Assembly: GCA_002710885.1 (NCBI GenBank)
Contig: PAIW01000091.1
Span: forward strand, 1-7,266
Length of the DNA: 7,266 nt
Direction: 5' to 3'
Source: Chloroflexota bacterium
GTDB lineage: Bacteria; Chloroflexota; Dehalococcoidia; SAR202; UBA11138
This document shows positions 1 through 7,266 of the stretch, in pieces. A model generated the notes under the pieces. It worked only from the letters and a program-made list of their open reading frames with translations, did no database searches and was not told the DNA's origin. The first letter of the stretch is position 1; each line of letters opens with the position of its first letter. Both the position numbers and the translations under genes were made by a program.

Positions 1-70
1 GGCAGGAACTGAAGCGTCAAAGTGACGAGGAGAACCGAATCTACTATGAGCCGCGGTGCCACGAAGGGAA
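1..70 (+). repeat. 70-bp perfect direct repeat, copy 1 (copy 2 at 1248-1317)
   Basis: Bases 1-70 match 1248-1317 at every position; the first mismatch is C at 71 against T at 1318. Both copies lie in the same reading frame near the 3' ends of two tandem paralogous genes. Copy 1 begins at the window edge, so the true repeat may extend further upstream. Perfect identity including silent positions points to recent duplication or gene conversion. Confidence 0.95.
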
Positions 71-188
71 CTATGGCTTGGCTGCGATGTTCATCGGTGC
101 GCGGGTTCGCGAGCAGGAGTTTGAGGCGGGGCGCGGGCCGGACCCGTTCTCATTGGACACCACCACGGGCGGCGGTGGTGCGCGGTAG
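1..188 (+). CDS. 3' end of a secreted hypothetical protein, tandem paralog of the 299-1438 gene (partial)
   Basis: Only the last 61 complete codons are in the window; the reading frame starts at base 3 and ends at TAG 186-188. The peptide carries QELKRQSDEENR, then YYEPRCHEGNYG, and later EQEFEAGRGPDPFS. It aligns without gaps to residues 318 onward of the next gene until the last few residues, where this copy ends in a Gly-rich TTTGGGGAR and the neighbour ends in TATCVNGLPE. The first 70 bases are identical to 1248-1317, after which the copies diverge at silent and replacement sites. This is therefore a recent tandem duplicate, or two copies kept alike by gene conversion. Its N-terminus lies upstream, but by analogy it should be an exported protein of about 380 residues. 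The function of this family is unknown to me. Confidence 0.85.
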   Translation, partial: QELKRQSDEENRIYYEPRCHEGNYGLAAMFIGARVREQEFEAGRGPDPFSLDTTTGGGGAR

Positions 189-223
189 CGACCTTCAGAA
201 TGGGAGTCAGTACTAGGTTGTCA

Positions 224-252
224 TTGACAGGGGCGAGGCCTAGGTGTATCAA
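224..252 (+). promoter_or_regulatory. Candidate sigma70-type promoter for the 299-4523 operon
   Basis: TTGACA at 224-229 is a perfect -35 consensus. It is followed after 17 bases by TATCAA at 247-252, which matches four of six -10 positions. Transcription would start near 259, leaving a leader of about 40 bases that includes the strong ribosome binding site at 286-292. It lies in the 110-base gap between the partial gene ending at 188 and the next start. Assignment rests on consensus matching only, and the upstream operon may also read through. Confidence 0.45.
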
Positions 253-285
253 GCATTGACTCCATTGTAGGTGAGTCATGATTTC

Positions 286-292
286 AGGAGGT
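286..292 (+). promoter_or_regulatory. Strong ribosome binding site that fixes the start at 299
   Basis: AGGAGGT occupies 286-292 and is complementary to the 3' end of 16S rRNA. ATG 299 is 6 bases downstream, which is ideal spacing. In-frame ATG 278 lies upstream of this site and ATG 293 directly abuts it, so neither can use it. Confidence 0.8.
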
Positions 293-298
293 ATGGAG

Positions 299-1438
299 AT
301 GAGGCCACGATTGGTCAAGTCGCTCGGTGTGGCAGCACTGGTCGCGAGCGTTATGGTGTTCTTGCAGTTCACCTCGGTATCGGTGGGTGGACAAGGGGCG
401 GCCTCGACCGCATGGGGTCACTCCAACCTAGAAGGCATCTGGCTCGATGTGTATGCGACGCCCTTTGAACGGGCGTCGGGGCTTGGCGATCGAGAGTTTG
501 CCACGATCGAAGAGCGAACCGCACGGGACCAAGCCCGAATGGTTAACCCGGGGCGTAACGAGCGCGCGGACCGTGCAGGTCAGGACGTTGCCGGCGCTTA
601 TAACGCCGTCTATACCTCAGCGAAGCCGGCCGGCCCACGCACGTCGCTGGTTGTTGATCCACCGAACGGGAGGATTCCGGCCTTGACCCCAGAGGCCCAG
701 CGGCAGAACGAATCACAGCAAGAGTGGCGACTGATGCTCCTGCAAAACACGGAGACCTGCCAGAGTGAAGCGCCAGGTTGCGCCGGTGGGAACTACGGGC
801 CACCGTCCGAGCGTAGATTCGACGTCGCTCCTTTCTACAATACGTCCCGCATGAACCGCCACTTTGGTCCAGAGGATCAGAGTTCGGGCGACCGGTGTAT
901 GTCAGGACGCACGCCAGATTTCAATGGGTTCCGCCGCATCGTACAGGGCGAGGATTCGATCGCTATCGGGTATGACACTGGACAGGGCCAGGGATTCCAA
1001 CGGGTCGTCTACCTGAGCGGGCGCCATCCGGCGAGCCAGATTCGTTTGCGGCATGGAGACTCGCGGGGGCACTGGGAAGGTGACACGCTGGTTATCGAGA
1101 CTACGAACTTCTCTCCCAAGTTTCCCTACCGTGGGTCGGGTGAGAACCGGAAGCTCGTCGAACGGTATACGCGTGTCGACGAGAATACGCTTGAGTACGA
1201 AGTGACGATTGAGGATCCGACGGTATGGGCGACACCGTGGACGGTCCGGCAGGAACTGAAGCGTCAAAGTGACGAGGAGAACCGAATCTACTATGAGCCG
1301 CGGTGCCACGAAGGGAATTATGGCCTCCCGGCCTTGCTCATCGGCGCGCGTATGGATGAGCAGGAATTTGAAGCGGGGCGCGGACCGGACCCGTTCTCCA
1401 TGGATACCGCCACGTGTGTCAATGGTTTACCGGAGTGA
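299..1438 (+). CDS. Secreted hypothetical protein of the 'RWEGDTLV' family, 379 aa
   Basis: The function is unknown. The N-terminus MRPRLVKS is followed by a hydrophobic run to about residue 23 (VAALVASVMVFLQF), a typical Sec signal peptide, so the mature protein should be periplasmic or outer-membrane associated. NLEGIWLD at 43-50 corresponds to the 'PNFNGVWQ' motif of the downstream paralog. GHWEGDTLVIETTNF at 257-271 is the family's clearest motif, and TIEDPTVWATPWTV at 303-316 matches TITDPETFTRPWTI of the paralog. The central part (about 150-240) has several cysteines (C154, C161, C200), with C336 and C373 near the end, suggesting disulfides in an exported protein. ATG 299 is chosen over upstream ATGs 278 and 293 because of the Shine-Dalgarno at 286-292 and because it puts the basic residues right before the hydrophobic core. 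The next gene starts 6 bases after its stop. Family and export are well supported; the role is not. Confidence 0.85.
   Translation: MRPRLVKSLGVAALVASVMVFLQFTSVSVGGQGAASTAWGHSNLEGIWLDVYATPFERASGLGDREFATIEERTARDQARMVNPGRNERADRAGQDVAGAYNAVYTSAKPAGPRTSLVVDPPNGRIPALTPEAQRQNESQQEWRLMLLQNTETCQSEAPGCAGGNYGPPSERRFDVAPFYNTSRMNRHFGPEDQSSGDRCMSGRTPDFNGFRRIVQGEDSIAIGYDTGQGQGFQRVVYLSGRHPASQIRLRHGDSRGHWEGDTLVIETTNFSPKFPYRGSGENRKLVERYTRVDENTLEYEVTIEDPTVWATPWTVRQELKRQSDEENRIYYEPRCHEGNYGLPALLIGARMDEQEFEAGRGPDPFSMDTATCVNGLPE
1248..1317 (+). repeat. 70-bp perfect direct repeat, copy 2
   Basis: This copy is identical to bases 1-70 and lies inside the 299-1438 gene, encoding its residues from about Q318 (QELKRQSDEENR, then IYYEPRCHEGN). 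Similarity continues more weakly beyond 1317, as expected of paralogs, so the perfect block is a sharply bounded tract. Confidence 0.95.
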
Positions 1439-1444
1439 GGAACG

Positions 1445-2431
1445 ATGATGCGAAATTGGTTTAGAGGTTCGACGGTTATCGTGGCGCTGGCCGCAGCTAC
1501 GGTGGGTGCTGTTGTCTCGGTCGCGGTAAGAAATACGGCCGGGCAAGGTCAAGACCAGAGCCAGGCGGCGCGTCCGGCGCAAACGCCTGATGGCAGACCA
1601 AACTTCAATGGCGTGTGGCAGGTGAACAACGAAGCACATTGGGACCTGGAAGCCCACGAGGCACGTCCGGGAATGGTGATGCAGGAAGGCGTCTATCCCT
1701 ACGAATACGCCAGGGTGCCGGCAGCGCCTGTGTTGGCACTGGGCGCGGCGGCTGGAGTACCCGGGTCGTTGGGAGTAGTGGGGGGCGACGGTCGGATTCC
1801 CTACACACCCGAGGCTTTACGCATCAAGCAGGAGAACGCCGAGAATTGGATCGACCGGGACCCCGAGCTCAAGTGCTACCTGCCCGGCATTCCGCGCGCA
1901 ATGTATATGCCCTATCCCTTTCAGATCGCCCAAGGCACCGACAAGATCCACATGACGTTCGGTTTTTCGAACGCAGCGCGTGTCATACACCTGGATGACG
2001 TTACTGGGCCCCCGGACTATACCTATATGGGGCATTCGGTTGGACGGTGGGAAGGGGACACACTGGTCGTCGATGTAACGTATTTCAATGGCAAGACTTG
2101 GTTCGACAGGGCCGGAAACTTTCATAGTGAGGACTTGCAGCTCACAGAGCGTTTCTCGCCGATGACACCAGATGCTATCTGGTACGAAGTGACGATTACC
2201 GATCCCGAGACTTTTACTCGCCCTTGGACGATCGCGATGCCGCTTTACCGGCGTCTTGAACCGAGTGCTACAGTTCTGGATTATCCCTGCATCGAGTTCG
2301 CCGAAGAGTTCATGTATGGGAATTTACGCAGGGAGCCATTGGTTACACGATGGGAAGGTGAGACCATGATCGTTGACATCACCCGCAAGATTCCGCCTGG
2401 CGATCGTCTCCATGAGTGGTATCGAAGGTAG
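1445..2431 (+). CDS. Secreted hypothetical protein of the 'PNFNGVWQ / RWEGDTLVV' family, 328 aa
   Basis: This is a distant paralog of the preceding gene, of unknown function. MMRNWFRGS followed by a hydrophobic stretch to about residue 28 is a signal peptide or N-terminal anchor, followed by a Gln/Ala-rich linker (33-47). The family signature DGRPNFNGVWQ is at 49-59, GDGRIPYTPEA at 114-124, LKCYLPGIPRAMY at 142-154, GRWEGDTLVVDVTYFNG at 200-216 and TITDPETFTRPWTI at 250-263. A second copy-like motif, TRWEGETMIVDITRK, occurs at 301-315 near the C-terminus. The start is ATG 1445, 6 bases after the previous stop, with GGAG at 1432-1435; ATG 1448 (spaced from GAGGA at 1437-1441) is an equally possible start one codon later. 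Close packing with the neighbours suggests co-transcription and a shared envelope task. Homologs of this kind are common and usually unannotated in Acidobacteriota. Confidence 0.85.
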   Translation: MMRNWFRGSTVIVALAAATVGAVVSVAVRNTAGQGQDQSQAARPAQTPDGRPNFNGVWQVNNEAHWDLEAHEARPGMVMQEGVYPYEYARVPAAPVLALGAAAGVPGSLGVVGGDGRIPYTPEALRIKQENAENWIDRDPELKCYLPGIPRAMYMPYPFQIAQGTDKIHMTFGFSNAARVIHLDDVTGPPDYTYMGHSVGRWEGDTLVVDVTYFNGKTWFDRAGNFHSEDLQLTERFSPMTPDAIWYEVTITDPETFTRPWTIAMPLYRRLEPSATVLDYPCIEFAEEFMYGNLRREPLVTRWEGETMIVDITRKIPPGDRLHEWYRR

Positions 2432-2447
2432 TGTGTTGTCAGGCAAT

Positions 2448-2454
2448 GGGGAGG
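2448..2454 (+). promoter_or_regulatory. Ribosome binding site that fixes the DUF6152 start at 2463
   Basis: GGGGAGG lies 8 bases before ATG 2463. It supports this start over an in-frame TTG at 2373, which lies inside the upstream gene and would add 30 residues ahead of a signal peptide. Confidence 0.7.
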
Positions 2455-2462
2455 CGAAAGTA

Positions 2463-2912
2463 ATGAGAATGGGACACGTGGTTGCGGTTTTAGGGATCTG
2501 TGCGTGGGTGGTGGGAACTGCCGTGCCAGTCACGGCGCATCATGCATTTGCCGCCGAATTCGATGCGGACAGCCCGGTCGAGTTCAGTGGTACGGTCACG
2601 AAAGTTGAGTGGGTGAATCCCCATGTCTGGATTCACCTTGACGTGACGCGGGATGACGGCACGATGGAGGGTTGGGCATTCGAAGCTGGGACTCCGAATG
2701 TACTGTTCAGGCGGGGCTTTACGAGGGACTCGCTCCTACCTGGGACCGATGTCAGGGTCGATGGGTATCAGGCGAAGGATGGAACTAACCGGGCGAACGG
2801 TCGTGACATCACCTTTATCGACGGGACTAAGTTGTTTCTCGGTTCGTCTGGTACCGGGGCACCCTGGGAACTGGCACGACCCGGCGTAGATACCTCGGAT
2901 CCTCTGCGCTAA
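2463..2912 (+). CDS. DUF6152 family exported protein, 149 aa
   Basis: A small exported protein of the DUF6152 family; its biochemical role is not known. MRMGHVVAVLGICAWVVGTAVPVTA is a signal peptide, with probable cleavage after the Ala at 25, leaving a mature protein that begins HHAFAAEFD. The His-His start, the FDADSPVEFSGTVTKVEWVN segment (33-52), the NPHVWIHLDV segment (52-61) and the GFTRDSLLPG segment (85-94) give the usual layout of the family: a small beta-rich domain with a 'V..VEWVNPH' core. An exposed N-terminal His pair and the His of NPH could bind metal, but this is speculation. ATG 2463 is chosen for the GGGGAGG at 2448-2454. The gene follows the previous stop by 31 bases and precedes the membrane protein gene by about 24 bases, so it is likely in the same operon. 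Family assignment is strong. Confidence 0.9.
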   Translation: MRMGHVVAVLGICAWVVGTAVPVTAHHAFAAEFDADSPVEFSGTVTKVEWVNPHVWIHLDVTRDDGTMEGWAFEAGTPNVLFRRGFTRDSLLPGTDVRVDGYQAKDGTNRANGRDITFIDGTKLFLGSSGTGAPWELARPGVDTSDPLR

Positions 2913-2936
2913 CTGACCCCGGTCGGTTGACATGGT

Positions 2937-4523
2937 TTGGGCTTGAGTGCGACGCGAGGCGGAGCGGTCTCTCTCTCTCCGTTGAGGGGCTTCTGTCTAG
3001 TCGGCTTCTTCGTAAGCGGTCTCGCTGCGTTCGGTTTCCTTGATGACGTCAGGCAGAACTCAGGGTTTCAGTGGTCGTTTCTCGGTGCGGTCGTCTTGCT
3101 TTTCGCCTGGAGCGGCACTGTGTTCGCGTTGGCTCGGCACACGGGTCGAACGCTGACGCTTAAGGTCATCCTTAGAAAACAGCACTACGTACAAGCCAGC
3201 GCGCAAGTGGTCTTCCTGTTGTATTGGGGATGGTACTGGCGTCCGGTCTACGACTCGGCCTTTCTCATCGTTGCTCAACTGGTCTTCGCCTACGCGTTCG
3301 ACATGCTGTTGTGTTGGTCGCGACGCGATACCTACGTGCTTGGGTTTGGCCCGTTCCCTGTCATCCTTAGTATCAATTTATTTCTCTGGTTCGTGGACGA
3401 TTGGTTTTTTCTGCAGTTTTCGCTGATTGCGTTGGGCTTTGCGGCCAAAGAGCTGATCCAGTGGAACAAGCAGGGACAGCAAGTCCACATCTTTAATCCC
3501 TCGTCGTTTCCGCTCGCTGTTTTCTCGCTCGCGTTGATTCTCACCGGTACCAGTGACCTCACGTGGGGACAGGACATTGCGATTACACAGTTCTTTCCTC
3601 CGCACGTGTATCTGGTGTTGTTTTTGGTCGGGCTGCCGGGGCAGTACCTGTTCGGTGTGGCATCGATGACGATGTCTGCGGTCATAGTCACCTACGCGTT
3701 CGGGCTCCTCTACTTTGCGGCGACAGGCGTCTATTTTTTCTACGACTCGTATATCCCTGTTGCCGTGTTCCTTGGCATGCATCTCTTGTTCACGGACCCG
3801 TCCACAGCGCCGAGGAGTGAGGTGGCTCGTATCCTGTTCGGGGTGCTCTACGGCTTGAGCACCGTGGCGCTGTATGCACTTCTCGGATATGTGGGCGTAC
3901 CGACCTTTTACGACAAACTGTTGTTTGTACCCGTGCTGAACCTCTCTGTTCAACTATTGGACCGCCTGACACTGGCACGTTGGCTTCGCCAGTTTGAACG
4001 CGTGGCATTCTGCCGCTTGCGTAGCCAGCCGCAACGAAATCTCGCCTATATAGCGGTCTGGGCGGCAGTATTTTCGGTCATGAGCGTCGTTCAAGGTGTG
4101 GGCGACCGTCATCCCGGCCAGTGGGTGCCGTTTTGGCAAGAGGCTTGCAGTCAGGGGCGAACGTACGCCTGTTCGTATCTCGCTGACATGCAGGAGAGGT
4201 ATTGTCGGAGTGGGTCCGGGTGGGCATGCAACGAAGCAGGCATTCTTCACGTTGCGCTGGTTCGCTCGGGAAAGGATCGTCGCCGGCTCGACGTCGCAGA
4301 CGCCGCAGGGACGCTTGGGCGTGGTTGCGACCTTGGCTTCGGCCCAGCCTGCCGGAACGTCGCGAGACTGGCCTCGGGTTTGAACTCATTTGAGCACGGA
4401 CAACCGACGCTGCAGGACTACCCGATCATCTTGCGCGGAACCAAGGGACCGATCAAGGACCGCTCGCCCGAGGCACTATATGCTCGCGCTTGCAACCAGG
4501 GTTGGAACAACGCGTGTAGATAG
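2937..4523 (+). CDS. RnfD/NqrB-like polytopic membrane protein with C-terminal Cys-rich Sel1-like repeats, 528 aa
   Basis: Residues about 17-390 contain roughly ten to twelve hydrophobic segments (for example 17-35, 46-65, 86-101, 107-126, 189-203, 222-240, 270-285, 297-319, 369-387). VHIFNPSSFPLA at 183-194 and LLFTDPSTAPRS at 283-294 match the 'FNPxxF' and 'DPxTxPxxxxGRxxFG' landmarks of the NqrB/RnfD family, membrane subunits of ion-pumping flavin electron-transport complexes. The SGAT-type motif that carries covalent FMN in that family is not visible, so classical flavin loading is doubtful. The last 130 residues are soluble and hold four Cys pairs, each in a C-x7-C spacing (404/412, 423/431, 464/472, 519/527) within 'AC..G...AC' contexts. 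This resembles Sel1-like repeats stabilised by disulfides, so the tail is probably periplasmic. No other Rnf/Nqr subunit is in the window. The start is uncertain: an in-frame stop sits at 2928-2930, the first candidates are TTG 2937, TTG 2943 and TTG 2982, and none has a clear Shine-Dalgarno. Confidence 0.75.
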   Translation: MGLSATRGGAVSLSPLRGFCLVGFFVSGLAAFGFLDDVRQNSGFQWSFLGAVVLLFAWSGTVFALARHTGRTLTLKVILRKQHYVQASAQVVFLLYWGWYWRPVYDSAFLIVAQLVFAYAFDMLLCWSRRDTYVLGFGPFPVILSINLFLWFVDDWFFLQFSLIALGFAAKELIQWNKQGQQVHIFNPSSFPLAVFSLALILTGTSDLTWGQDIAITQFFPPHVYLVLFLVGLPGQYLFGVASMTMSAVIVTYAFGLLYFAATGVYFFYDSYIPVAVFLGMHLLFTDPSTAPRSEVARILFGVLYGLSTVALYALLGYVGVPTFYDKLLFVPVLNLSVQLLDRLTLARWLRQFERVAFCRLRSQPQRNLAYIAVWAAVFSVMSVVQGVGDRHPGQWVPFWQEACSQGRTYACSYLADMQERYCRSGSGWACNEAGILHVALVRSGKDRRRLDVADAAGTLGRGCDLGFGPACRNVARLASGLNSFEHGQPTLQDYPIILRGTKGPIKDRSPEALYARACNQGWNNACR

Positions 4524-4591
4524 TTACGTAGACTTCGCTTCGGCATCCGTAATGACTAGATCCTTATTCACTAGATTGAAAATGGAGGAGA

Positions 4592-4615
4592 CGGAGAGCG
4601 TGCGCGCACTCTCCG
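4592..4615. terminator. Candidate bidirectional terminator hairpin 1
   Basis: CGGAGAG at 4592-4598 pairs perfectly with CTCTCCG at 4609-4615, and part of the interior (GTG against CGC with a wobble) can stack further. It lies 69 bases after the plus-strand stop. Neither side has an immediate U-tract, so it is not a textbook intrinsic terminator; it could instead protect a 3' end. Confidence 0.45.
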
Positions 4616-4667
4616 AACCCTTTGACCCGCACGGCATGCAAGCGGTTAACGTCGTGCGCTGACGACC

Positions 4668-4688
4668 CGCGCCATATGCGATGGCGCG
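4668..4688. terminator. Candidate bidirectional terminator hairpin 2
   Basis: CGCGCCAT at 4668-4675 and ATGGCGCG at 4681-4688 form a perfect 8-bp stem with a 5-base loop. It sits between the convergent genes, 42 bases beyond the cytochrome stop on the minus strand. The flanking sequence has no long T-run on either strand, so it could act as a terminator or an RNA-stabilising hairpin. Confidence 0.45.
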
Positions 4689-4730
4689 TTCCAACGTGCG
4701 CATTAATTGTAGCTGTTTGAACGATTGCGT

Positions 4731-5285
4731 TTAATCGACGTCAGGACGCGGGTCAGGCACGAATCCGTTACGGTTCGGCATCTGTACTTCTGGCACGGTC
4801 GTTGCGTCCATTCGTTCGGACTCGTCAATGATACCGTTGAGATAGAGTACGTATGCAACTGAGCCGTAGACCTCATCTGCCGCGAGTACTCCAGGCTGAT
4901 CAAACGGCATCGCGCGATTGATGTAATCCCACAGCGTTGTTGCAAACGGCCAATAGCTACCGACCGTTTTACTCGCAACATCACTCGTCAGGCTTCCTTG
5001 GCCGCCAGCGAGAACACTATCAGGGCCTTCGGTGCCATTGATTCCATGACAGCGCGCACACCGTTGTTGATAGATGCGTCGTCCTTCAGTGGCTGTCGAG
5101 CCGCCGGCGGGTAGCCCGTCTCCACTCGGACTGATATTCACGCCCCAATCCTTGATCGCTGCCGGTGTTACAGGTTGTCCAACGTTGAACGTTTGTGATG
5201 CCGCCTGTTGGGGTGCGACGACGTACACGAGCAAAACCGTAAGTAGGAGCGTGGTCAGCACCGTCCAGTCATGTCGACTAGACAT
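4731..5285 (-). CDS. soxD: SoxD-like single-haem cytochrome c, partner of SoxC, 184 aa
   Basis: A periplasmic or membrane-anchored c-type cytochrome expected to take electrons from the molybdenum subunit encoded just upstream. Residues 8-24 (TVLLTTLLLTVLLVYVV-like run) form a signal peptide or anchor. RCARCHG at 75-81 is the CxxCH haem site (C76, C79, H80), and M126 in AMPFDQPG is the likely distal haem ligand. TPAAIKDWGVNISPSGDGLP (40-59), GSYWPFATTLWDYINRAMPF (109-128) and the late VQMPNRNGFV (167-176) match the N-terminal domain of SoxD from sulfur oxidisers. SoxD from Paracoccus-type systems continues into a second haem domain; this protein stops after the first. The start ATG 5285 is preferred over ATG 5291 because GGAG (plus-strand 5293-5296) is 7 bases upstream of it. 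It overlaps the soxC stop by 8 bases, so translation is probably coupled. The symbol is by similarity; 'SoxD-like' is the safe reading. Confidence 0.85.
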   Translation of the reverse strand: MSSRHDWTVLTTLLLTVLLVYVVAPQQAASQTFNVGQPVTPAAIKDWGVNISPSGDGLPAGGSTATEGRRIYQQRCARCHGINGTEGPDSVLAGGQGSLTSDVASKTVGSYWPFATTLWDYINRAMPFDQPGVLAADEVYGSVAYVLYLNGIIDESERMDATTVPEVQMPNRNGFVPDPRPDVD

Positions 5286-6492
5286 AGACATTCTCCACGG
5301 TTCCGTCTGCCGCGACCTTCCACGACTGGATAGCGTTATTGTGGTAGCTCGACTGCAGGCCGCGCTTGGCAATGAGCGCGTCGCGTGTTGGTTGGGTGTA
5401 GCCAGTTTCATCAATGCACCGTGATTGAAGCACCGCTTCTCCTCCATCCCACGCCCAGTTGAAGCGAAACCGTGTGTGTGCAAGTGGCAGTATGGGGGAT
5501 TGAAGCTCAGCGCGGTGCCAGTCTTTGCCTCCATTGGTAGATACCTCGACTCGGTCTACTCGTCCACGACCTGACCACGCGATACCTTCGATCTGATGGG
5601 AACCTACGCTACTGAGTTGTTGGCCGCCGGACGGATTCGTGATCACCGACTTGGCTTCCATGATGAATGTGAACTGTCGTGCCGTCCCGTCTGGCAAGAG
5701 ATCGGTGTACTTCGATGTTTCCTCTCTGGTCATGTACGGTTGGTCAACTAGTTCGATACGGTGGAGCCATTTGACGCTAATGTTGCCTTCCCAGCCAGGC
5801 ACAAAAAGTCGCAACGGATATCCTTGTCCGGGACGGAGTGCCTCTCCGTTTTGACCAAAGGCAACCAACGTGTTGTCTAATGCCTTCGTGAGGGGAAGGC
5901 TCCGGTTAAGCCGGCTGGCGTCTGCGCCCTCGGCAACAAGCCATGTGGCTTCCGGACGCACACCGACTTCTTGCAATAGTAGCGAGAGCGGGATCCCCAC
6001 CCATTCACTGCAGCTCGTCATACCATGCGTGCTCTGTACGGTTGTCGCGCCAGCCTCTCCCCAGAGGGTACGACTATTACCGGAGCATTCGAGGCTGTAG
6101 ATTCGAGAGACTACCGGCAACTGCTTGAGGTCGTCGAGGGAAAATTCTAAGGGACGCTCAACCAAACCGTGAATCAACAGACGATGGGTTGACGGGTCAA
6201 TATCTGGCACTCCCGCATGGTGCCGCTCAAAATGGAGGGCAGACGGTGTGATGGTACCGTGCAGGTCTCGGAGCGGTGTCCGACTGCTCGATGCCTCAGA
6301 ATGTCGACTGTCTCGCAGAAGCCGAATCGCGGTTTCAAATCGAGAGCGGGCGCCGTAGGCGCTGACCCCATGACCAAGCGTGCGCGCGGCATCCTGTAAT
6401 TGGCCGAACAGTACTGACGGCTGCAATGCAGCAAAAGTTGGGCCGAGTATTGCCCCGATTTTTAGAAAGCGCCGCCGGGTCCGAAGTTCCAT
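5278..6492 (-). CDS. soxC: SoxC: molybdopterin sulfite/sulfane dehydrogenase catalytic subunit, 404 aa
   Basis: A sulfite oxidase-family molybdoenzyme that oxidises sulfur at a molybdenum-molybdopterin centre in the periplasm. TRRRFLKIG at 5-13 is a twin-arginine motif followed by a hydrophobic stretch, so the folded enzyme should be exported by Tat. HFERHHAGVPDIDP at 87-100, LECSGNS at 134-140 with the molybdenum-ligating C136, WLVAEGADAS at 184-193, GYPLRLFVPGWEGN at 224-237, TREETSKYTDLLPDG at 255-269 and YHNNAIQSWKV at 383-393 are close to SoxC sequences. The molybdopterin domain comes first (about 70-265), then the Ig-like dimerisation domain (about 270-404), with full length for the family. 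In Sox systems SoxCD removes electrons from SoxY-bound sulfane sulfur; without soxYZ here, sulfite may be the substrate. The start ATG is supported by AAGGA 8 bases upstream. The cytochrome gene overlaps its stop. Confidence 0.93.
   Translation of the reverse strand: MELRTRRRFLKIGAILGPTFAALQPSVLFGQLQDAARTLGHGVSAYGARSRFETAIRLLRDSRHSEASSSRTPLRDLHGTITPSALHFERHHAGVPDIDPSTHRLLIHGLVERPLEFSLDDLKQLPVVSRIYSLECSGNSRTLWGEAGATTVQSTHGMTSCSEWVGIPLSLLLQEVGVRPEATWLVAEGADASRLNRSLPLTKALDNTLVAFGQNGEALRPGQGYPLRLFVPGWEGNISVKWLHRIELVDQPYMTREETSKYTDLLPDGTARQFTFIMEAKSVITNPSGGQQLSSVGSHQIEGIAWSGRGRVDRVEVSTNGGKDWHRAELQSPILPLAHTRFRFNWAWDGGEAVLQSRCIDETGYTQPTRDALIAKRGLQSSYHNNAIQSWKVAADGTVENVYV
5293..5296 (-). promoter_or_regulatory. 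Ribosome binding site for the SoxD-like cytochrome, inside soxC
   Basis: On the minus strand GGAG (plus-strand CTCC) lies within the last codons of soxC and 7 bases before ATG 5285. It decides between two in-frame ATGs six bases apart, since ATG 5291 would directly abut it. Confidence 0.6.
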
Positions 6493-6500
6493 GCCTGTGT

Positions 6501-6505
6501 TCCTT
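6501..6505 (-). promoter_or_regulatory. Ribosome binding site of soxC
   Basis: The minus strand reads AAGGA (within AGAAAGGAAC) 8 bases before ATG 6492, a good Shine-Dalgarno match and spacing that supports this start. Confidence 0.65.
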
Positions 6506-6533
6506 TCTGCGTGGTGCTAAACGTATCACGCCG

Positions 6534-6552
6534 CGAGCACTAGTCGAGCACT
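6534..6552. repeat. Two 8-bp direct repeats spaced one helical turn apart upstream of soxC
   Basis: CGAGCACT occurs at 6534-6541 and again at 6545-6552, an 11-base period that places both copies on the same face of the DNA. They lie 42-60 bases upstream of the soxC start codon, where an activator or repressor might bind. The overlapping ACTAGT at 6539-6544 is a palindrome. No regulator is encoded nearby, so the role is only suggested. Confidence 0.35.
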
Positions 6553-6660
6553 GTTTTCCTTGGTTTTTGTTTCCGGATCGTCCTGCACAATAAGCGTGGG
6601 TTTACGCTCTAGTGCACGGTCCAGAGCGAGTGTTTCTGGGGCTGCAATACTGGTAGAACG

Positions 6661-6682
6661 GTCCACGTTGACAGGCGTGGAC
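6661..6682. promoter_or_regulatory. Inverted repeat (candidate operator) over the -35 element
   Basis: GTCCACG at 6661-6667 and CGTGGAC at 6676-6682 form a perfect 7-bp inverted repeat with an 8-base spacer. The spacer contains the TTGACA of the candidate promoter, so a dimeric regulator bound here would cover the -35 box. The left arm is part of ACGGTCCA (6658-6665), which also occurs at 6616-6623, 42 bases (about four turns) upstream. Confidence 0.45.
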
Positions 6683-6696
6683 AGCCTCGCCACAAT
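6668..6696 (+). promoter_or_regulatory. Candidate sigma70-type promoter of the cytochrome c-DUF1587 gene
   Basis: A perfect TTGACA at 6668-6673 is followed after 17 bases by CACAAT at 6691-6696, which matches four of six -10 positions. Transcription would begin around 6702-6705, immediately before ATG 6706, which has no Shine-Dalgarno. The resulting message would be leaderless or nearly so. Confidence 0.45.
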
Positions 6697-6705
6697 GAAC
6701 ACCTC

Positions 6706-7266
6706 ATGAGGAATGTGACTGTTTTGGCCCATGTTGCCGTAGTCGTTGCGGTGGCAGCTTCGGCCGCTGGTCAGGGACCCGCCCCGAATCGACAGTCTGC
6801 TGCAAGTGCGCGTTCTGAGGGACCTGCGTACGAGGGATTGCTCGACCAGTATTGTGTTAGTTGCCACAACGAGGCGATGAGCGGTCAGGGGACCGTACCG
6901 TTTGCCTTTGAACACCTCGACGTGACTGACGTGGGCGCCGACGCGGCGATGTGGGAAACGGTAGCTCGGAAGTTGCGGCTCGGTATGATGCCGCCGCTCG
7001 GTCGACCGCGCCCGGACCGTGTGACAAACGACCGGTTCGTGACGTGGCTCGAAGGGGAACTTGACGCGGCGGCGGCGGCCAACCCGAATCCAGGGCGTTC
7101 AGTGGTCCGCCGTTTAACCTCCGCCGAGTACATCAACGCCGTCCAGAGCCTGCTTGCTTTTGAGGTCGATGAGCACTGGCTACTGTTTCCGGTAGATGAC
7201 GTGGACCAGCAAGGTTTCGATACGAACGGGGACGTGCTCTCGGTGTCGCCGGCGCTTGTTCGATCG
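6706..7266 (+). CDS. Secreted cytochrome c-DUF1587 protein (Planctomycete-type), 5' part only
   Basis: The first 187 codons of a gene that continues past the window end. MRNVTVLAHVAVVVAVAASAAG is a signal peptide. CVSCHN at 50-55 is a CxxCH haem c site (C50, C53, H54), with RLGMMPP at 91-97 offering the distal Met ligand; together they form the small cytochrome c domain often called PSCyt1. RRLTSAEYINAVQSLLAFEVD at 135-155, then FPVDDVDQQGFDTNGDVLS (161-179) and SPAL (181-184) match DUF1587. Proteins of this class usually continue through DUF1595, DUF1592, DUF1588 and DUF1585 domains, to about 700-900 residues, and are often followed by a DUF1552 gene. Their reaction is unknown. ATG 6706 is the first Met after an in-frame stop at 6610; GTG 6715 is an alternative. 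It is transcribed divergently from soxC. Confidence 0.87.
   Translation, partial: MRNVTVLAHVAVVVAVAASAAGQGPAPNRQSAASARSEGPAYEGLLDQYCVSCHNEAMSGQGTVPFAFEHLDVTDVGADAAMWETVARKLRLGMMPPLGRPRPDRVTNDRFVTWLEGELDAAAAANPNPGRSVVRRLTSAEYINAVQSLLAFEVDEHWLLFPVDDVDQQGFDTNGDVLSVSPALVRS

Follow-up and report, generated by a model that had tools for sequence, protein, structure and literature searches.

RnfD and NqrB (PF03116) are familiar chiefly as components of redox pumps with six parts. In RnfD, both the N and the C ends are cytoplasmic, and the threonine that carries flavin mononucleotide (FMN), Thr153, lies in a linker spanning residues 140–190 (PMC9588780). The riboflavin pocket of NqrB, in the available excerpts of PMC9325719, consists of Thr162, Asn200, Asn203, and Asp346. 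Here we describe a relative of these subunits encoded at 2937..4523 (+) in a window of 7,266 nucleotides, which is the whole of the stretch analysed (contig PAIW01000091.1, positions 1 to 7,266). The reading frame is open throughout and encodes 528 residues from a TTG start, with in-frame TTG codons also at 2943 and 2982. A first-pass annotation, made from the sequence alone, had read the product as an RnfD/NqrB-like membrane protein with a Cys-paired Sel1-like tail, and the translation confirms the motif positions it gave, FNPSSF at residues 187–192 and DPSTAPRS at 287–294.

Our main finding is that an RnfD/NqrB-type membrane core and a C-terminal solenoid are joined in a single gene, and that this fusion is conserved among homologues. 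The component parts are already known; the combination is uncharacterised, and no published description of it was found in the literature searched. We favour, at a probability of roughly 0.4, the reading that the protein works by itself as a flavin/quinone electron conduit and bears a docking arm in the periplasm, passing electrons to a docked secreted partner. We infer the redox step, and are much surer of the fold, the tail type, and the domain arrangement than of this full statement.

The core has ten helices (residues 81–344, 3177..3968). Assigning its fold needed a family alignment as the query rather than the lone sequence: the lone 528-residue sequence found nothing above threshold in Pfam, in NCBIfam, or in a phmmer search of the PDB, whereas the profile of the core matched the RnfD/NqrB fold, as the first-pass annotation had proposed. 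The solenoid (residues 397–528, 4125..4520) is Hcp-like, with profile matches to HcpC (1ouv, E 2.5e-14), HcpB (1klx, E 1.4e-4), and COA7 (7mqz, E 0.001). Its four C-x7-C pairs (404/412, 423/431, 464/472, and 519/527) stand exactly where they had been placed, and the only other cysteines of the protein are at positions 20, 126, and 359. Four or more such pairs arose by chance in 1 of 20,000 shuffles of the tail residues. When the 120 best homologues were aligned with the query, each of the eight positions was Cys in 119–121 of the 121 rows, and all eight were invariant in the 97 rows of a Cys-tailed alignment (selected out of 241 retained proteins, with identity down to 37%, and not picked by motif). 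Tails of 110 residues or more occur in 49 Cys-tailed rows; the number of pairs in these ranged from 3 to 7, and in 46 every tail cysteine belonged to a pair (L009, L012, and L059 being the exceptions).

This conservation holds among the Cys-tailed proteins but not beyond them. Five sister proteins combine this core with TPR tails (one of them mixed with Sel1), and none of the five has a tail cysteine. These were chosen since their match ended at or near the core, and were fetched together with two others, so that five of 54 is not a frequency. In a tree of the core they form one group, with support of 91/94 (under the level that the tool marks with a star), next to the clade with seven pairs and that clade's relatives. 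The idea, put forward in the first-pass annotation, that the eight cysteines serve as a relay by which electrons or thiol/disulfide equivalents leave the core for the periplasm could draw on their invariance and on the probable periplasmic position of the tail (see below). We nevertheless consider it very unlikely, because the core carries Cys-free tails as well as tails with varying numbers of pairs while its own key residues stay invariant, and because the tail of the 528-residue protein has no CxxC motif. Excerpts of PMC3851747 also describe the HcpC superhelix as locked by structural disulfides and an E. coli Sel1 homologue as adopting the same geometry without them. Given this precedent and the Cys-free sisters, the C-x7-C pairs are most likely structural disulfides that stabilise the solenoid.

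Instead, the conserved function resides in the core and the tail looks like an exchangeable docking solenoid, since core residues are constant across tail types while the tails differ; besides the core, it is the possession of a solenoid that is conserved. In 56 rows covering all tail types, H83, W97, Q114, S145, H184, L279, L283, D287, T290, and N335 were identical throughout. N187, P188, D326, and K327 were also constant in these rows, but by row choice, since the motifs FNP[SA] and [FYH]YDK served to select the set. In the 97-row alignment, which was free of such selection, Asn187, Asp287, and the adjacent His184 were each invariant. Two of these residues lie in HIFNPSSFP (residues 184–192, 3486..3512), where H184 and N187 occupy the positions of Asn200 and Asn203 in the riboflavin pocket of NqrB, as matched by eye from the motifs NxxNPA and HxxNPS. 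The third begins DPSTAPRS (residues 287–294, 3795..3818) and aligns, via 7zc6_D, to Asp248 at the Na+/riboflavin site of RnfD. An hhalign comparison of the core with three NqrB sequences (probability 3.5%) was used solely to place the NP and TDP motifs. Relative to the NqrB pocket, the counterparts of Asn203 (N187) and Asp346 (D287) are retained.

The protein departs from an Rnf/Nqr subunit in two ways, as the first-pass annotation had noted. The site of the FMN-threonine in RnfD is here occupied by a short linker (residues 204–223, 3546..3605) of about 20 residues between model helices 190–203 and 224–239, and no SGAT-type attachment motif, a feature of PF03116, occurs anywhere in the 528 residues. 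Nor are partner subunits co-encoded in the window: a Pfam scan of seven open reading frames found no Rnf/Nqr subunit apart from the protein itself, and no ApbE, although subunits may be encoded in other parts of the genome from which the window comes. Because it has neither the SGAT threonine nor partners beside the gene, the protein fails as an Rnf/Nqr subunit, with the fold retained. Full-length PF03116 matches with SGAT were found in three of eight genomes carrying the family, on other contigs. Two genomes additionally encode a second RnfD-like protein of 281–282 residues (L041, 6105–6950; L042, 6172–7020), in which both pocket Asn are kept and SGAT was not seen. The L041 copy adjoins an ApbE gene by Pfam, and the L042 copy adjoins a similar open reading frame, a candidate ApbE.

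The model suggests additions at both ends of the core. Four helices precede the half-helix at 139–149, as against two in RnfD, which suggests two additional N-terminal transmembrane helices (residues 15–69, 2979..3143; model helices 15–32 and 42–69); alignment starts were mixed, with seven of 11 NqrB rows beginning from model residue 61–78 and the other four, together with all four RnfD rows, at 1–16. After the core comes a positively charged, probably cytoplasmic stretch (residues 337–369, 3945..4043), with a mean of 6.8 K+R and 2.0 D+E per row, and then an extra hydrophobic C-terminal helix (residues 364–384, 4026..4088) recognised from the model, hydropathy, and charge pattern. Because both ends of RnfD are cytoplasmic and this helix follows the K/R-rich stretch, the solenoid tail probably lies in the periplasm; helix count, charge, and fold thereby support the side of the membrane that had been assumed for it.

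In the reading we favour, this stand-alone inner-membrane protein would bind one non-covalent, riboflavin-like flavin and/or a quinone in its core, and would transfer electrons between the pool of quinones and a partner in the periplasm that docks on the solenoid. Products of conserved neighbouring genes would be the likely partners. Two encode proteins of a family we call C1, and no Pfam or NCBIfam family was found for these two: one of 386 residues (278..1438, +), apparently secreted, and one of 328 residues (1445..2431, +), predicted with moderate confidence to be a lipocalin/FABP-like barrel. A third, immediately upstream, encodes a DUF6152 protein (2373..2912, +; PF19649, 106.3 bits). In tblastn searches of 27 loci (L001–L027), used since longer spurious reading frames can hide genes, C1-family genes lay within 6 kb in 21 and DUF6152 in 16. 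Both families are greatly expanded in the same ten genomes (G001–G008, G085, and G124), with at least 26 to at least 154 matches each for C1 and at least 6 to at least 73 for DUF6152. No paper on DUF6152 was found in the literature searched. Its copies have a signal-peptide-like start that may end right before a His-His pair (AHHA in 12 of 13 copies and AHHS in one), followed by a conserved NPH motif. From this sequence pattern, the N-terminus is a possible copper site resembling a histidine brace.

These neighbours also bear on a different proposal, that the protein is a scaffold or maturation factor whose core would be a membrane anchor and whose solenoid would assemble or load secreted proteins. 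COA7, which has Sel1 repeats, serves in the assembly of cytochrome oxidase. The tail's profile match to COA7 would fit such a role by analogy, as would the secreted appearance of the neighbours and the His-His start of DUF6152, which after the predicted cleavage would suit a metal site. A plain anchor, however, would not be expected to retain so many invariant core positions over 37–41% identity, and the metal role of DUF6152 is itself something we infer; we regard this proposal as unlikely.

Several observations weigh against the electron conduit. The 528-residue protein scored 16.8 bits with PF03116, below the curated cut-off of 27.7; a TPR-tailed relative, L086, scored 29.1 bits. The NCBIfam rnfD model gave no match for the protein and weak partial matches in its relatives, and Foldseek against the PDB returned no match at E <= 0.001 (best 0.023). 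In the pocket, NqrB Asn200 is replaced by His and the RnfD gate Phe244 by Leu, and Thr162 could not be placed, so the pocket may contain a different ligand or none. FMN may instead be carried outside an SGAT motif by Thr209 or by Thr217, the latter present in 31 of the 65 rows of clade A and in all 32 of clade B. C1 and DUF6152 were not found in the examined flanks of six of the 27 loci (L005, L006, L007, L012, L015, and L024), nor near the paralogues L037–L040. Finally, the Amt, Rh, and urea channels have the same fold and are cofactor-free. The core could accordingly be a channel or carrier of the Amt/urea-transporter type, with the solenoid delivering or sensing a protein that binds a ligand, for example the C1 product resembling a lipocalin, a possibility we consider doubtful but somewhat less so than the scaffold. 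We grade on a par with it the most ambitious form of the conduit reading, in which the family would be a new class of single-protein transmembrane conduit: an RnfD/NqrB core freed from the sodium pump, without covalent FMN, with a riboflavin/quinone site containing the invariant His184, and exchanging electrons with secreted, possibly copper-binding partners on an exchangeable Sel1/TPR arm.

The family is large. Scoring of 7,995 candidates gave at least 6,077 database proteins that match with E <= 0.001. Matches were found in at least six of 81 genomes of one family (one of them weak), in seven of 149 genomes in a phylum draw, and in at least 70 of 149 genomes of the class of G001, where matches were strong in 50 (best E no higher than 1e-168) and weak in the other 20 (best E no lower than 5e-13), the weak ones mostly via the Sel1 part. 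Judging by the 27 loci from species genomes, 25 of which have labels of the Acidobacteriota type, the window appears to be Acidobacteriota DNA. The two remaining loci, L001 (95% identity) and L016, are labelled Dehalococcoidia and Bordetella parapertussis, yet their contigs look like Acidobacteriota, and the labels are probably mis-binned or mislabelled. We take the remaining locus names to be Acidobacteriota.

Other features lie around these genes. Positions 3–188 of the window hold the apparent end of another C1 copy, and since its sequence is almost the same as that at the end of the 278–1438 protein, the C1 block seems to extend further upstream, with a recent tandem duplication. On the strand opposite to 2937..4523 are a SoxC-type sulfite dehydrogenase gene (5278–6492, −; TIGR04555, 565 bits) and then a cytochrome c gene (4731–5534, −). 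Elsewhere, the Cys-tailed member L085 is adjoined by an FG-GAP protein (2106–3722) with a CxxCH motif at its start, and the TPR-tailed L086 by a TPR protein (3743–5686) with a sub-threshold copper-monooxygenase match. A possible link to the enediyne proteins UnbU/UnbV gained no support from the literature searched.

A single-gene family of this size, with no FMN site, would reveal which part of the pump works alone, and would provide the little-studied Acidobacteriota with a membrane-to-periplasm redox or docking system. Since a shared core occurs naturally with a Cys-paired Sel1 tail and with a Cys-free TPR tail, what core and tail each contribute can be tested directly. Compared with RnfD/NqrB, the protein shares the core fold, the TDPxTxPR and NP motifs, and the inner-pocket Asn and Asp; it differs in its short linker without SGAT, in the His and Leu that replace pocket Asn200 and gate Phe244, in probably having two more N-terminal helices and one more C-terminal helix, in its solenoid tail, and in having no partner subunits in the window. 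Helicobacter HcpB and HcpC likewise have Cys-paired Sel1 repeats, although the solved Hcp chains are without a membrane core, as is the 236-residue chain of COA7 (cytochrome c oxidase assembly factor 7), which resembles the tail. The fused NqrB-NqrF of NQR/RNF-like flavinylation systems, as described in excerpts of PMC8238504 (eLife 2021), differs in that its fused domain is cytosolic and NAD-binding and its clusters are linked to ApbE, whereas the protein here has a solenoid and a window in which no ApbE was found; in joining an NqrB/RnfD membrane domain to a soluble domain, however, that fusion is the closest precedent we have seen.
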